From assembly GCF_947623445.1 (NCBI RefSeq), contig NC_135243.1, positions 8,000,501 to 8,064,500 of the forward strand: a DNA stretch of 64,000 nt. Direction: 5' to 3'. Below the pieces are notes generated by a model. It was not told the DNA's origin. It ran no database searches and saw only the letters and a program-made list of their open reading frames with translations. A program made the position numbers and the translations under genes. The DNA is from Clavelina lepadiformis. Lineage: Eukaryota; Chordata; Ascidiacea; Aplousobranchia; Clavelinidae. Positions 59,128-64,000 of the stretch are shown in pieces; the stretch's first letter is position 1, and each line of letters begins with the position of its first letter.

Positions 59128-62100
59128 TTATAACTCATCTTTGCCTGCCATCTCTGCTTCAACTTCTTCTGGTAATTCATCGCCGAACTCACCATCAAGC
59201 ATATCCTAAAAACAAGGCTTTTTTAGTTGTAGAGTAGAAAGGGGTGCATGCACAATATGTCTTTAGTTACTGTATACCAGTTGTGTTACTTACCACACAG
59301 AAATGACTCAAATACCTAAATGACTCAATATAGTAACTGCAATTGTGAGAGGACGAAGGCAAATTTAGTTGGCCCAAATGTATTTTCCCATTTGATGGTA
59401 AAATGCACAAATTCACAAGCACCACATACGCTATTATAGAACGGTAATATTGTAAACGCCAGCATCAAAACTTCAGGTTCAACAACGTTTAAAAAGCAAT
59501 TATAAAGAACCCTTTAAGACACTTAAAGCTACAACCATGACAAATTTTCTACAGTTCAGATTTAAGCTTTTTCACGAATTCTTCTGGGTCACCATGTGGT
59601 AATTCGCCAAGATCTTCTAATCTCCCTGACAATTTTCCCTACGAAAATGTGACATTTTTGTGATGACCACAAACAAATTAACAATCCTGCGAAACAGCTT
59701 TCAGCTATAACCTAGCTCACCATATCGTCTTCCAATTTTTTTAGGTGTTCTCTACTCTCGTCATCCATACCAGGTTCAATAATGGGAGTTGTCTAGGGAC
59801 GTGTTTAATTTATAATTCACACGTTAAAATCTAACGCAATTAATCGCAAATTTATAACTAACTTTACCTCAGTTGGTGGCGGCCCACGAATGTCAATTTT
59901 CACCTAACAATAATTAATATAATTAAAACGGTGGCCAATGAAGCCCGACCCCTGACCTCTAACCTCTAACCTGGAAGACAGCATGCCTAACTCCACTAAC
60001 CATGCAAGACAAACATTACCAACTTCATATTAAGCAAGTTTAAACACTCTGACCAACATTACTGACTTAAAAGATCTATTACTTTTAGCTGACAACCATA
60101 TTCATAACCAATAAAACCATAATATAAAAAAACTCTACCAATAAACCACGTGCCACTTTGCCCCAAAACCTGCAAGACTCTAACAACGACTCCACCAATA
60201 AACCCAAGACCCATTGTGACAGGAACTACGACTAACAACGCACCAGTTTGGCAGTTGCTGGGATACTTTTTTCCAATGAGAGGAACAAAAGAAAACTTTA
60301 GACTTACGACAGTGATTTCACATCTTTGTCTTATGGATAATGGTAAGATAGAAAATGTAAACATCCACAATTTGTTTGAGGAGAATTTCTAAAGAAATCA
60401 ACCAACTACGTCTACCACCATCTACCTCCTCTATCTCTTCCTCATCACCAACGTCTTCACTCACTTTAACGCCGTTAGATTCGACATACTCGACCATAGC
60501 GTCCAAGGATCTTTCGCCGTTGTAGTCAAGGGCCTGAAAACGAAATTTTGTGTGAACTTTGAATTAAAAAATACTTGCATTCAGTTCTTGAAAGCAATTT
60601 TCTTGATGGATAACAAGATTACATTGATGTGAATACTGCCCTACCCACACACCAAGTGCTACCTACCCGTTAATTATATGCTAATGAGTAAATTGGGAAA
60701 CTAGTTGCATTAATCTCTCACTTGCTCATGTTCACCAGAGGGGAAGAATTTAAGAGTGGGGAATCCCTGGACTTCGATACCTTCAACCTCGTTAGCAGTG
60801 GAATCCATCATAGCAATGACGATATCATCATTATCCTTGAATTTTTCACCGAGTTTTTCCCAGGTTGGCTTTAGAGCCTTGCAGTGGCCACACCAAGGGG
60901 CATCTAGGATTAATGCAAGATTTTAGGAACAAGCTACAAATTATTTTTGTGCTAACTATGACTTGCAAAGATTTTGATGAAATCTTTGCAGTGCTACAAA
61001 TTTGAATACAATATCTGTGCTGATGAATAGCTTCTCATGTGCCTTTTCATGTGAATGAACATTTAATTTCATTGCACAATAATTCTGCTGCTCTACAGAT
61101 TAAAATCTATGCTAATGGCAAACTACCCTAACTTGCTTGTTCTTTCTTCTACGACATACTTTGAAATCGGGCCCAGACGGCATAAAATATAGGGTGGGAA
61201 AGGCGAGCAAATTTATGCCGGGAACATCATTTTTCGTGCCATCTATCTTTGCAATGATCACCCCTGGGTCGGTTTCAAACTTTCGACCCAACTTTTCCCA
61301 AACTGGATTTAATTTCTGACTGTATTTACACCATGGAGCATCTATAAAATGTTATCCTAAGTAATTACATGTTCACGAACGGTAGTACAGAGCTTGGGCG
61401 AAAACAGCCTGTTTTGCAATCTGTAACTTTTGTTTTCTTGGCAAAAACTTAACTTGTATTTATGTGAAATTGAAGTGTAACTTACAGAATTCAACAAAAA
61501 CTTTTTTGGATTTGTCTAGGGCAACTTCGTTGAAGTTTTTGCCAACAAGTACAGTGACTGGATTTTTGTTCCAGTCTTCAGGAATGTCTTGACTCATCAA
61601 ATGACGCTGGAAATTCATGTGATTAGATTTTTTTTTCACCAAAAAGCGAAGGATATTAAACAACAATAACTTACCTTAGCGTCACCGCTTTCAACTTCAT
61701 TAGTGAACTTGACAATGGCTTCAGTGCCCAAATCTTTGGTCTCGGGTTTAAACTTAGCCATGTTTTCAGACATCTTGATAATTCTGTAGTCGGGGATATC
61801 GGCATCAGTGAGACCAAAAAATTCCATGACACGTTTGTTGTCTTCTTGGTCAGTATCAATGTAAATGAAAAGAACCTAAAAAAAATTTCATTATCGTACG
61901 TATTAGTTATTACCCTGCAATGTTACTGCACCTGATGGAAACCACAAAGCTGTGAGAAGAATGGCTGAAGTTGATGTTATGGTTACAACTTACTTTTCCT
62001 TTAAACTGTTTGGCAGCTTCTTTGAAAGCAGTGTAGTGAGCGTTGAATTCTGTGCTTGCTTTGGAGACAAAGAGAAGATTGTGGACTTGGATTTCCCCAC

Positions 62101-64000
62101 CAAAGATTTTGGGTGCAGTCTTTTGAAAAAATACTTGTAAGCAAGGTATTATTGGAATAAGATGGTAACCGAAGACAAAATTTCATGCTAGATTTACAAC
62201 TTTTGCTATAGTCGACTACTTCTTCTAACTACTGGAAACAATAAACCCAAGTGTATGTAATAAATTTTTAACTACCGCTGACAACCATAATCAAACTATA
62301 AAAGGTTCTTTCAGGAACATTTAATGGGTTGTCAAACATTACCTCAGCAGTGAATTCAGAAACCAGACGGAGTTGATTTTCTTTAATAAACTTTGTCATG
62401 TCGGCGTCAGCCGTAATGTCACCATCGTAGTCCATGCGCCCTTCATCAAACTAACACCAAAATATCTCTAAGTATACGCTACATCAACATGCATTCCCAT
62501 AACCAAATCACAAAAAATGAGCCGTTAAGTACACAGAGATTTGCCAATCAAACCATAGTTCTAAGACCCTCCTACACTAGCACATGCTTCGCGGAGCATA
62601 TGCTTACCGACTCCTTCATTTCTTGAACTAATGGGGACGTTTCTCTAATTACCCAAGCAACAAGTTTTGGAGTATCGAGGGTGGTCTCTAATTTTTGTAA
62701 CTTACCAGCTTCATCCTTTAATTGTAGTAACAAGCCTTACAGTTTGTTCCAATTTCAACCAAAGCCGCAACGTTATAGGTTGCAAGTGATTGGCGATTGT
62801 TCACATATATATATACCTGTTTGAAGATGACAACTTTGTTCATTTCAACTTCAGCACTAGCGGCAACTTCGGGATTGTAAATAACACCGAACGGGACGTC
62901 ATCGATGGCACCAGCGACATTCTCGTAATTCTTGAAGTTAGCATGATCTGGACCCTGAAAAATATTTGCCATATTACAAGTCACACTATTAGATGCCAAA
63001 AGCGTGCCAAAGCCACTGTTTATAATATACTAACACCTAAATAATTACGCCAAAAAATGGTACAAAACAAGAGTAAGAAACTGGACGGAAATGTTAATGG
63101 AATATGCAAAATGAACTTACTTCATAATGAGCAATAACGACCACGTCGCTGCCTTCTTTCAATGATTTAACCTCTTCTGCAGAAGCCAGTACTTTGCATG
63201 GAGGACCTGTTTTCTTTTTCAACCAGCTTACAATATCAGGAGCTTGTCTTCCTCCTGTTATAAATGACAGGTTTGAAGACGAAAGTATTTTGCAAACAGC
63301 AAATGTTCTACAACATGCAACGAACATGCCATATCAACAGAAAGCTATATACAGAGCCTACACCATATTTAGCAACTAAATAACCTGTCTAAAAATACAC
63401 CAAAATCTACTCCCACAGGAACTTCTGTATCCCACGCCCTATTTGGAAAACTAAACCTAAACCCTAAATGCTATAGGGTCATGCATATCTTGCCAGTGTA
63501 AGTGAAAGTGGCAGATCCCTTCTGTCTCGAGTAAATTATGGACGGATAGCCATTGATTTGCATGGCTTTTACAAGTTTCTCTTCCTGACTCCCATCAACT
63601 TTAGCCAGCCTAACATTGGGCAACTGTTGCTTTAGCATTTCAGCAGCCTTGACCCATTCTTTTGCTAATTGCAAACACGGGAGACACCAAGGGGCATCTA
63701 GACAAATAAGAAGGAAAAGTTATTTACCTTGATATTCTAATGCGTTTCCATTTTTCATAAACTTAAGCGTGGGATAACCACGGACTTCGTATTTTTTAGC
63801 AAGGTCGGCTTCAACAGTTGCGTCAACTTTGGCCAGTTTGATGGGTGACCCTTCCTCGTTCAACTGGGTTGCAGCTTTTGCAAATTCAGGAGCAAGGGAT
63901 TTACAATGCCCACACCATGGTGCGTCTTAAACAAAGGCTACAAATATTAGCATAAACTAGCCAACACATTAATATAACTATGTACCAAATACTTGCTGAT
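59128..64000 (-). CDS. P4HB: Protein disulfide isomerase (P4HB/PDIA1-like), canonical splice form, 5' end outside the window
   Basis: ER-luminal oxidoreductase and chaperone, in animals also the beta subunit of collagen prolyl 4-hydroxylase. Canonical exons on the minus strand: 63925-63728 (a domain, [10 protein letters not shown], cis-Pro GYPT), 63254-63121, 62954-62817, 62450-62343, 62119-61994, 61875-61675, 61606-61486, 60903-60722 (a' domain, [10 protein letters not shown], cis-Pro GFPT), 60533-60426 and 59205-59128, which ends MAGKDEL-stop. This gives 463 complete codons after the split one, close to the same part of human P4HB. Domain order a-b-b'-a'-acidic tail is intact, including [10 protein letters not shown] in b' and [10 protein letters not shown] before a'. 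The signal peptide and first exon lie beyond 64000. Extra exons interleaved with these are listed separately. PDIA1 is preferred over PDIA3 or PDIA4 because of the b' motifs and the KDEL tail. Confidence 0.92.
59549..59903 (-). CDS. PDI alternative C-terminal exons ending in KSEL
   Basis: Three small exons, all phase 0: 59903-59868 ([12 protein letters not shown]), 59792-59721 ([20 protein letters not shown]..) and 59638-59549, which encodes [20 protein letters not shown] and ends [13 protein letters not shown]. Together they add 65 residues, against 61 for the canonical tail (exons 60533-60426 plus 59205-59128). The terminal KSEL resembles the KDEL-type ER-retrieval tetrapeptide. They lie between the two canonical tail exons, so they must be skipped in the KDEL form. 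Which upstream exon they join is inferred; either the CKYS exon or 60533-60426 fits in phase. Confidence 0.7.
61160..61341 (-). CDS. PDI alternative a'-domain exon, active site CKYS
   Basis: 182 nt, identical in length and phase to the canonical a' exon at 60903-60722. It encodes [18 protein letters not shown], ..IIAKIDGT.., [11 protein letters not shown]. About half of the residues match the canonical exon. The second active-site cysteine is serine (CKYS in place of CGHC), so only the attacking Cys remains, as in ERp44 (CRFS). The acceptor is TTTTATAG and the donor AAA|GTATGT. Using both this exon and the canonical one would shift the frame. Confidence 0.82.
62608..62715 (-). CDS. PDI alternative exon at the b/b' junction
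   Basis: A 108-nt open exon starting [20 protein letters not shown] and ending VQEMKES, flanked by an AAAG acceptor and a GTAAGC donor, phase 0 on both sides. The canonical exon just downstream (62450-62343) is also exactly 108 nt and phase 0, starting [10 protein letters not shown]. The second halves align ([14 protein letters not shown] with [14 protein letters not shown]). Similarity is low but the length, phase and position agree. The acceptor has a weak pyrimidine tract. Confidence 0.65.
63494..63697 (-). CDS. PDI alternative a-domain exon, active site CLPC
   Basis: This 204-nt exon has the same split phases as the canonical a exon (2 nt in, 1 nt out) and no stop. It encodes [18 protein letters not shown], then RLAKVDGS, then NGYPS, so the thioredoxin fold landmarks (WCxxC, cis-Pro) are kept while CGHC is replaced by CLPC. 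Identity to the canonical exon is roughly one third. The acceptor is TTTGTCTAG. The only donor in phase is a GC site (ACTG|GCAAGA), which joins to the next common exon to give [10 protein letters not shown]. Only 30 nt lie between the canonical exon's donor and this acceptor. Confidence 0.8.

Follow-up and report, generated by a model that had tools for sequence, protein, structure and literature searches.

The locus described here raises the question of whether the active sites of a PDI can be exchanged by splicing. To our knowledge, active sites in the PDI family are taken as fixed, and gene duplication is regarded as the source of the family's functional diversity. Within the window (the whole 64,000-nt stretch of DNA that was analyzed), we found that the PDIA1/P4HB gene of Clavelina lepadiformis, on the minus strand of chromosome 4, contains adjacent homologous exons with matching phases at the a-domain active site (pair 2), the b/b′ junction (pair 5), and the a′ active site (pair 9) (Table 1). 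We put at roughly 0.72 the probability, judged from the DNA sequence, that this is a PDIA1 carrying alternative exons for the two active sites and the b/b′ junction, whose choice would convert a dithiol isomerase into a protein with CxPC at one site and a single cysteine at the other. A first-pass annotation of the same DNA had proposed exon switching in one PDI gene, with extra exons reaching into the tail. Anatomy, homology, and codon-level conservation speak well for such switching, and the gene model and translation bore out the three pairs as open and matched in phase; the tail, however, is not an exon pair. The exons had been placed at 59128..63925; the gene itself starts farther upstream, with an exon 1 outside the window.

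Table 1. Exons and related features of the Clavelina PDIA1 gene, in order along the gene (positions numbered from the first letter of the window)
Feature	Position	Strand	Basis or remark
Exon 1, start codon	65146-64987	(-)	beyond the 64,000-nt window; gene model
Exon 2A, canonical a site YAPWCGHCK, 198 nt, phase 1 to 1	63728..63925	(-)	gene model, profile, within P0122
2A-2B gap, 30 nt	63698..63727	(-)	2A donor GTAAAT, TAAC, pyrimidine tract, 2B acceptor
Exon 2B, alternative a site YAPWCLPC, 204 nt, phase 1 to 1, GC donor 63493-63492	63494..63697	(-)	gene model, profile, codon positions
Exon 3, common (end of a, start of b)	63121..63254	(-)	gene model
Exon 4, common (b domain)	62817..62954	(-)	gene model
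Exon 5B, alternative b/b′ junction, 108 nt, phase 0 to 0	62608..62715	(-)	gene model, in-context profile
Exon 5A, canonical b/b′ junction, 108 nt, phase 0 to 0	62343..62450	(-)	gene model, profile
Exon 6, common (b′)	61994..62119	(-)	gene model
Exon 7, common (b′)	61675..61875	(-)	gene model
Exon 8, common (linker, start of a′)	61486..61606	(-)	gene model
Exon 9B, alternative a′ site YAPWCKYSQ, single cysteine, 182 nt	61160..61341	(-)	gene model, profile, tree, codon positions
Exon 9A, canonical a′ site YAPWCGHCK, 182 nt	60722..60903	(-)	gene model, profile
Exon 10, common (end of a′, acidic tail start)	60426..60533	(-)	gene model; 10/11A join inside P0122 match
Exon 11B1, candidate alternative tail, 36 nt	59868..59903	(-)	weak codon statistics, matched by 0.09 of null windows
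Exon 11B2, candidate alternative tail, 72 nt	59721..59792	(-)	codon statistics matched by 0.0014 of null windows
Exon 11B3, candidate alternative terminal exon, KSEL-stop, 90 nt	59549..59638	(-)	codon statistics matched by 0.0038 of null windows
Exon 11A, canonical terminal exon, KDEL-stop, 78 nt	59128..59205	(-)	gene model, P0122

The predicted canonical isoform is 99.4% identical over 517 amino acids to an annotated Clavelina protein (P0122), and this agreement supports the canonical exon joins; P0122 includes one copy per pair, the canonical one, with CGHC at both sites and a KDEL end. On TIGR01130, the profile of the ER PDI family (cut-off, 344.25 bits), the canonical isoform scored 511.4 bits, and a predicted isoform carrying all B exons and the KSEL tail also exceeded the cut-off, at 416.6 bits. 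The two CGHC sites that mark PDIA1/P4HB occur in the canonical isoform only, the B exons having CLPC and CKYS; the KDEL of exon 11A is a C-terminal ER retrieval signal, a role that is putative for KSEL. Canonical introns in the gene range from 68 to 1220 nt. Among the genome matches found, each B exon occurs once: apart from themselves, 2B and 9B matched best the canonical exon in PDIA1 itself, and 5B and the tail exons matched only themselves. As a background control, we listed same-strand ORF pairs with an E value of <1e-3 within 6 kb, a comparison blind to divergence at the 5A/5B level. The window held eight such pairs (six of PDI exons, one an antisense shadow of these, and one of 19 amino acids elsewhere), and five other stretches, a small control of 46.1 kb, held two, one of which resembles a CCP-domain repeat by eye and the other of which spans 17 amino acids.

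On the a-site profile 2B scored 70.2 bits and on the a′-site profile 9B scored 74.7 bits, where the top controls (36-mers, shorter than either exon) reached 9.9 and 8.4 bits, respectively. The two exons are open through 67 and 60 codons, and in the tree 2B falls within the a group (support, 86/72) and 9B inside the PDI a′ clade (98/99). By alignment, 9B retains the YAPWC frame with its nucleophilic cysteine, as well as the FPTL proline loop. Identity at the three codon positions was 0.55/0.58/0.31 for 2A/2B and 0.57/0.75/0.34 for 9A/9B; because positions 1 and 2 are conserved and position 3 is near random, we conclude that 2B and 9B were long kept as protein. Neutral decay (3000 simulations, six distances) matched the codon pattern of these pairs in ≤0.0017 of simulations at every distance. 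A recent loss of their function, under about 0.1 substitution per site ago, may have occurred; at approximately that distance, 0.42 and 0.32 of simulated neutral copies were still open. Estimates of dS were saturated or failed and thus give neither an age nor an exact constraint value, and the tree, in which 2B and 9B form long branches over 67 columns, likewise provides no date for the duplications. Codon usage amounted to 0.073 (2B) and 0.098 (9B) bits per codon, against 0.117 to 0.793 for the canonical exons, and was matched by 0.022 (2B) and 0.017 (9B) of null windows.

The homology of 5A and 5B was doubtful at first. The two share 4 of 36 residues, and 5B scored alone gave 7.0 bits, against maxima of 6.8 bits for null sequences (n = 1571) and 7.3 bits for shuffles (n = 2000). 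Placed between exons 4 and 6, however, it gave 172.3 bits, compared with 137.4 bits without any exon 5, and because this in-context score beats all control inserts at the same position (maximum, 163.5 bits; n = 2900, comprising 1500 shuffles and 1400 genomic sequences), we consider the homology upheld. Exon 5B is open through its 36 codons; identity by codon position (0.36/0.39/0.22) gives no sign of constraint. The exons are separated by 157 nt, and including both, either, or neither keeps the frame, so that neither gap length nor frame poses an obvious barrier to joint inclusion.

The 2A-2B gap, in turn, is below the splicing minimum for an intron, and, as splicing is generally understood, exons so spaced should not be joinable to one another. 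The pair should therefore be mutually exclusive, which the spacing makes highly probable. The gap contains a branch-site-like TAAC at +6 to +9, and its retention would bring in an in-frame stop. In a study of human mutually exclusive exons (MXEs), a donor-to-branch-point distance of <50 nt is described as causing steric interference, and some of the human pairs are blocked by a too-short spacer, as pair 2 would be (PMC5740500). The spacing of 2A and 2B had not been remarked upon in the first-pass annotation. Doubling of exon 2 keeps the frame, and skipping it leads to a stop at codon 54. For 2B, neither the final 96 nt nor the stretch up to the downstream stop contains a GT in the required phase, and use of its last in-phase GT (exon nt 108) would remove the second half of the domain; 2B therefore requires the GC donor, whose consensus is imperfect. 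In pair 9, the frame is shifted both when the two exons are included together (stop at codon 467) and when neither is (stop at codon 398).

A second PDI gene of the same genome, PDIA3/ERp57, was found to contain three same-phase copies of one a-domain exon, with 26 nt between two of the three. The exchangeable exons lie outside the CGHC motif and would alter the second half of the domain. No branch-point overlap was found in the 26-nt gap, TAAC being present only in the PDIA1 gap. That ERp57 repeats the pattern points to selection acting on the folding machinery, not to chance. This parallel, too, is new relative to the earlier annotation.

We propose that the exons of each pair would be spliced in a mutually exclusive manner, and the B exons are very probably translated in some cell or stage. 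The canonical form would be an ordinary CGHC/CGHC isomerase. In the B form, the a domain would present CLPC, a CxPC site predicted to be more reducing, and the a′ domain (CKYS) would keep the nucleophilic cysteine and lack the resolving one, so that mixed disulfides might be slow to resolve and thiol clients retained or held. That the CKYS form is a covalent trap or retention chaperone is a tentative reading, at somewhat below even odds; CxxS is the one feature that suggests an ERp44-like trapping role. It is doubtful that the exon choices are linked across pairs. More speculative still is an ER-folding splicing program, in which, in a particular cell type or state, linked PDIA1 choices and parallel PDIA3/ERp57 choices would yield a reductase/covalent-trap form and alter client binding; one gene would then do the work of separate genes in other chordates. 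If the B exons are used, splicing would let an animal swap the catalytic cysteines of the disulfide isomerase on which it chiefly relies, and the resulting natural CGHC, CLPC, and CKYS forms of an otherwise similar protein would offer a ready-made experiment on the residues that decide among oxidation, reduction, and trapping.

We searched protein databases with the 2B region, with the 9B-to-tail region, and, for short fragments, with a joint 2B/9B profile, the match lists covering 120 of 479, 53 of 53, and 120 of 127 matches, respectively. Among the matches listed, no protein carried 2B or 9B, and only other PDI or thioredoxin-like proteins appeared. A pattern search found a CxxS/A/T site in 0 of the 293 listed matches and a CxPC site (CGPC) in one, P0121. 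This protein, the top match of one search, was considered as a B-exon carrier and rejected; it is a multidomain PDI with one CGPC, several CGHC sites, and no B exon. Identity among the eight best matches per exon was ≤52% (2B) and ≤54% (9B), and the joint search reached 63% over only about half of the query. Among the listed protein matches, none was recognized as a tunicate relative of the B exons. Two tunicate proteins are named there, P0122 and P0123, each with a CGHC/CGHC pair of sites; the P0122 cluster consists of two sequences at 90% identity and could conceal a single-exon variant.

Several other accounts of these exons deserve consideration. One, which we hold to be unlikely, is that the B exons are used but mainly alter binding partners (candidates being prolyl 4-hydroxylase alpha subunits, ERO1, and other clients, contacted via the b/b′ junction and the a′ surface), with CKYS merely inactive and no trap. 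Exchange of the b/b′ exon, which has no active-site cysteine, and the location of the PDIA3 exchange outside CGHC would both fit such a role, as would the beta-subunit role described for PDI in collagen prolyl 4-hydroxylase (PMC9676403); an inactive domain, however, need not keep the catalytic features that 9B retains. It is improbable that the B exons are decaying duplicates whose splicing has been lost. The absence of a B-exon protein among the listed database matches, the GC donor of 2B, and the weak codon usage of 2B and 9B point in that direction, but 67, 36, and 60 codons remain without stops, phases are kept, pairs 2 and 9 are constrained at codon positions 1 and 2 with position 3 near random, and PDIA3 provides a parallel. 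Slightly less probable again is a regulatory function, in which 2B and 9B would occur mostly in unproductive transcripts and the PDI level would be tuned by RNA decay. The frameshifts from both or neither exon 9 and the stop upon skipping exon 2 are what one would expect of it, yet a poison exon has no need of conserved codon positions 1 and 2, a thioredoxin core, openness, or equal length, and every combination of exon 5 is in frame.

Inclusion of both copies in one longer protein, with extra half-domains, would keep the frame at exon 2 or exon 5, but the 2A-2B gap is below ordinary intron size and contributes a stop if retained, doubling of exon 9 shifts the frame, and P0122 shows single inclusion; we regard this outcome as very improbable. 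Equally remote is a separate overlapping gene as the source of the B exons, a notion for which we found nothing in support. The first-pass annotation had named such a gene as grounds for abandoning its proposal, and a six-frame profile scan of 58.5 to 74.5 kb gave no convincing second exons 1, 3, 4, 6, 7, 8, or 10, although the scan scored 5B at only 4.0 bits and would miss equally diverged copies.

As a set of alternative exons, the PDIA1 pairs resemble the mutually exclusive, tandemly duplicated exons of Dscam (PMC1397879), muscle myosin heavy chain (Mhc; PMC2257972), and the human MXE set (PMC5740500), which likewise are adjacent, homologous, matched in phase, and chosen within one gene. 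Unlike in these systems, the Clavelina choice would swap the catalytic motifs of a disulfide isomerase, and the main text of the human MXE paper does not mention disulfide, P4HB, PDIA, or thioredoxin (PMC5740500). In Conus regularis, Cr07_i1 and Cr07_i2 are reported as transcript isoforms of one PDI with CKYC versus CGHC as the a′ motif; unlike in Clavelina, both have two cysteines and the a site is unchanged, and the words splicing and exon are absent from that paper's main text (PMC4747531). Alternative splicing of the same gene is described for human P4HB, in a main text from which "mutually exclusive" and "exon skipping" are absent and in passages that report no duplicated active-site exons (PMC7640458). 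Among the open-licence titles and abstract openings listed, we found no published PDI with duplicated active-site exons.

ERdj5 carries CxPC sites, and a Clavelina locus that we take to be ERdj5 (L025) shows CPPC and CGPC. This ER reductase (ERdj5/DNAJC10) is described as having active sites that, in general, are more reducing than those elsewhere in the PDI family (PMC3906653). It combines a J domain with four active sites, whereas 2B would supply a single a domain, putatively more reducing, of an a-b-b′-a′ PDI. The CKYS of 9B is a CxxS site of the ERp44 type, like the CRFS of ERp44 and TMX5/TXNDC15, which are natural trapping members of the PDI family; such trapping is described for TMX5 (PMC11443168). 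Those proteins are the products of separate genes (in Clavelina, ERp44 is locus L032, with the site C-R-F-S-Q), whereas 9B clusters with PDI a′ domains. An origin of 9B from ERp44, considered in view of the shared C-[KR]-[FY]-S-Q likeness, was rejected on the basis of that clustering and of the helix identity. Across the active-site helix, 9B is identical to ERp44 at 10/19 positions, which is not special, since 2A reaches 9/19 (9A, 7/19).

At the C terminus, a duplicated tail exon ending in KDEL or KSEL had been claimed. Both endings are present, but three exons of the KSEL series stand against one KDEL exon, and no homology between the former (36, 72, and 90 nt) and the latter (78 nt) was demonstrated. 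PDIA1 probably has an alternative C-terminal tail. Neither AATAAA nor ATTAAA occurs between the KSEL stop and the KDEL exon. A review reports that changing the KTEL of AGR2 to KSEL or KDEL abolished function (PMC10183570), and for that reason KSEL need not be equivalent to other retrieval signals. KSEL tails also end the Conus PDIs Cx03 and Cm04_i1 (PMC4747531).

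The predicted canonical product agrees with the annotated Clavelina protein P0122, a canonical PDI, at 99.4% across 517 residues, which makes both the species and the identity of the gene as PDIA1/P4HB firm. The gene lies on the minus strand, flanked downstream by a gene for CLPTM1 and upstream by sequence with an SPT16 C-terminal domain. Its first exon falls in flanking DNA that was added past the window end and whose overlap with the window was exact. When joined in the order 1-2A-3-4-5A-6-7-8-9A-10-11A, the canonical (A) exons give a product of 517 amino acids with CGHC, CGHC, and KDEL, and splice phases are consistent for all of these and for all alternative (B) exons. 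The last 96 nt of exon 2B contain no GT in the required phase; splicing at any of the earlier in-phase GTs (nt 12, 21, and 108 of the exon) would truncate the domain, so that 2B must use a GC donor at 63493-63492. Three residues differ between P0122 and the canonical product of the window (A/G close to the signal peptide, V/I within exon 5A, and E/D where exons 10 and 11A join), pointing to another haplotype or individual. Exon 9A (60722-60903) reads AMMDS, as does P0122, several listed relatives having AKMDS or AKMDA; exon 9B retains the lysine (AKIDG).

Positions of PDIA1 exons (window numbering) and of the triplicated PDIA3 exon
Feature	Position	Strand	Remarks
Exon 1	65146-64987, outside window	minus	start codon and signal peptide (by eye)
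Exon 2B	63697-63494	minus	alternative a site
Exon 5B	62715-62608	minus	alternative b/b' exon
Exon 9B	61341-61160	minus	alternative a' site
Exon 11B1	59903-59868	minus	alternative tail group
Exon 11B2	59792-59721	minus	alternative tail group
Exon 11B3	59638-59549	minus	alternative tail group, KSEL end
PDIA3 triple exon	L021:2637-3371 (C6:20,073,136-20,073,870)		second half of a domain; copies 3x (115 nt), 3y (118 nt), 3z (118 nt)

The first-pass annotation had proposed phase-matched exon pairs at the a-domain active site (pair 2), the b/b' junction (pair 5), the a' active site (pair 9), and the tail. This held for the first three, which are homologous and agree in phase, but not for the tail. 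When scored on profiles of 79 PDI relatives, from which the Clavelina sequences were excluded, 2B reached 70.2 bits at the a site and 9B reached 74.7 bits at the a' site. In the controls, the top scores among 1571 stop-free pieces of the window, each 36 residues long, were 5.2 (a site) and 6.8 (a' site) bits, and 2000 shuffles of 5B reached at most 9.9 and 8.4 bits; both kinds of control are shorter than 2B and 9B. By itself, 5B gave 7.0 bits against control values of 6.8 and 7.3, with no clear excess. Scored in context, after exon 4 and before exons 6-7, it gave 172.3 bits, compared with 195.7 for 5A and 137.4 for an empty position; the in-context controls did not exceed 163.5 bits (1500 shuffles) or 162.4 bits (1400 genomic inserts). 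Since the profile scores of 2B and 9B and the in-context score of 5B exceed these controls, all three are, by sequence, homologues of their adjoining exons. In a tree, 9B falls inside the a' clade (support of 98/99) and 2B inside the a group (86/72), a placement that leaves the duplications undatable. For the candidate KSEL tail exons, no homologous partner exon was found, and codon usage is the sole evidence; the fraction of null windows with usage as good was 0.0014 for 11B2, 0.0038 for 11B3, and 0.09 for 11B1.

Residues agree at 27/67 positions between 2A and 2B and at 30/61 between 9A and 9B. Identity at codon positions 1, 2, and 3 is 0.55, 0.58, and 0.31 in pair 2 and 0.57, 0.75, and 0.34 in pair 9; at synonymous sites, both pairs have diverged to saturation. 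The values for pair 5 (0.36, 0.39, and 0.22) are uninformative on constraint. A simple neutral-drift simulation of the B copy, without indels (3000 runs, six distances), reproduced the observed pattern in no more than 0.0010 (pair 2) and 0.0017 (pair 9) of runs at any distance. By this measure, 2B and 9B, as old duplicates, must have been translated through most of their history; a recent loss of function would escape the test. Among the genome matches found, the B exons are single copy; apart from their own loci, 2B and 9B are each matched best by their canonical counterpart in the same gene (40% and 51% identity). A profile scan of 58.5-74.5 kb, which very diverged copies would escape (5B itself scored 4.0 bits), revealed no convincing second copies of the shared exons; on this evidence, the B exons would be able to make a PDI only by way of those shared exons.

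The gap between 2A and 2B measures 30 nt, compared with 68-1220 nt for the canonical introns of PDIA1. Besides the donor of 2A and the acceptor of 2B, it contains a TAAC motif (+6 to +9) and a pyrimidine tract. The TAAC motif could be the 2B branch site; because it would overlap the footprint of the 2A donor, the two may compete directly. In human mutually exclusive exons, a donor-to-branch-point distance of <50 nt has been counted as steric interference (PMC5740500). Retention of the 30-nt gap leads to a stop, and inclusion of both or neither of pair 9 shifts the frame, with stops at codons 467 and 398. Inclusion of both exons of pair 5 keeps the frame, and no barrier to it was seen. If exon choice were free, 16 PDIA1 forms would be possible.

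Searches of the protein collection with B-exon queries returned no B-type protein among the matches listed, which we regard as slight counterevidence. The two named tunicate proteins among these matches are canonical at both active sites. The GC donor, together with the weaker codon usage, could point to low exon use. For the KSEL group, no strong poly(A) signal was found ahead of the KDEL exon, and, according to a review, AGR2 function is abolished when KSEL replaces KTEL (PMC10183570).

The predicted B form would have CLPC at the a site and CKYS at the a' site, in which the attacking cysteine is kept and the resolving cysteine is absent. CxPC sites are found in thioredoxin and ERdj5; the gene that we take to be Clavelina ERdj5 (L025) has CPPC and CGPC. 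The active sites of ERdj5 have been described as more reducing than those of other PDI members (PMC3906653). TMX5 (CRFS) has been named a natural trapping protein, which binds clients via its active-site cysteine, and the action of ERp44 on TMX5 goes through ERp44 catalytic cysteine 29 (PMC11443168). By analogy with these single-cysteine proteins, thiol clients would be expected to be retained covalently by the B form. Among 293 listed database relatives, a pattern search found no CxxS/A/T site and one CxPC site (CGPC, in the multi-domain PDI P0121). The b/b' exon includes the edge of the substrate-binding domain, and its exchange may therefore shift client preference. The likeness between ERp44 and 9B is confined to the CxxSQ motif, and because Clavelina has its own ERp44 gene (L032, C8:3,334,500-3,338,000, with CRFSQ), the CKYSQ exon is no substitute for a missing ERp44.

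Mutually exclusive exons have long been known, as have single-cysteine PDIs encoded by genes of their own. The first-pass annotation knew of no described PDI with exon-switched active sites, and we likewise encountered no precedent: in the open-licence literature, as represented by the listed titles and abstract openings, no PDI with duplicated active-site exons was found. The nearest report is that of a pair of transcript isoforms of Conus regularis PDI that differ in the a' motif (CKYC against CGHC), and the main text of that paper leaves splicing unmentioned (PMC4747531).

The 39 thioredoxin-domain matches listed in the genome fall within PDIA1 and 19 other stretches; all 19 were retrieved, and 15 of them matched the two PDI active-site profiles. 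One of the stretches, L021, is PDIA3/ERp57 (5.9e-69 to PDIA3 across 260 residues; tail KTEL) and holds an exon in three copies, all beginning AG/GTTGA, ending GCAG/GT, and in one phase. Of the three, 3z matches PDIA3 best when each is combined with the exons beside it (161.2 bits, versus 131.9 for 3x and 128.4 for 3y) and is thus the canonical copy. The copies agree pairwise at 16-18 of 38-39 residues, all contain the cysteine pair VDC-x6-C, and show codon-position identities of 0.63/0.58/0.45 (x-y), 0.53/0.68/0.21 (x-z), and 0.59/0.69/0.36 (y-z). The 3x-3y spacer is 26 nt, and two copies together would shift the frame, since the length of each is a multiple of 3 plus 1. Exon duplication with a too-short spacer is, as read from the genome, present in at least two Clavelina PDI genes. 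Self-comparison of the PDIA4-like L018, TXNDC5-like L019, and PDIA6-like L020 (labeled from motif and domain count) revealed no extra exon copies of the kind that it can detect, which would miss pairs diverged like 5A/5B; the repeats in these three fit the expected domains. L029 (C7:12,262,000-12,271,500, minus strand) contains many thioredoxin-like repeats, with active sites including GCGHC, GCGYC, GCSHC, GCGAC, and VCTVC, and may be a PDIA5-like gene carrying additional domains or duplicated exons. At L033:1870-2741, two similar ORFs that by eye resemble glutaredoxin lie in tandem, with 58% identity over 71 residues.
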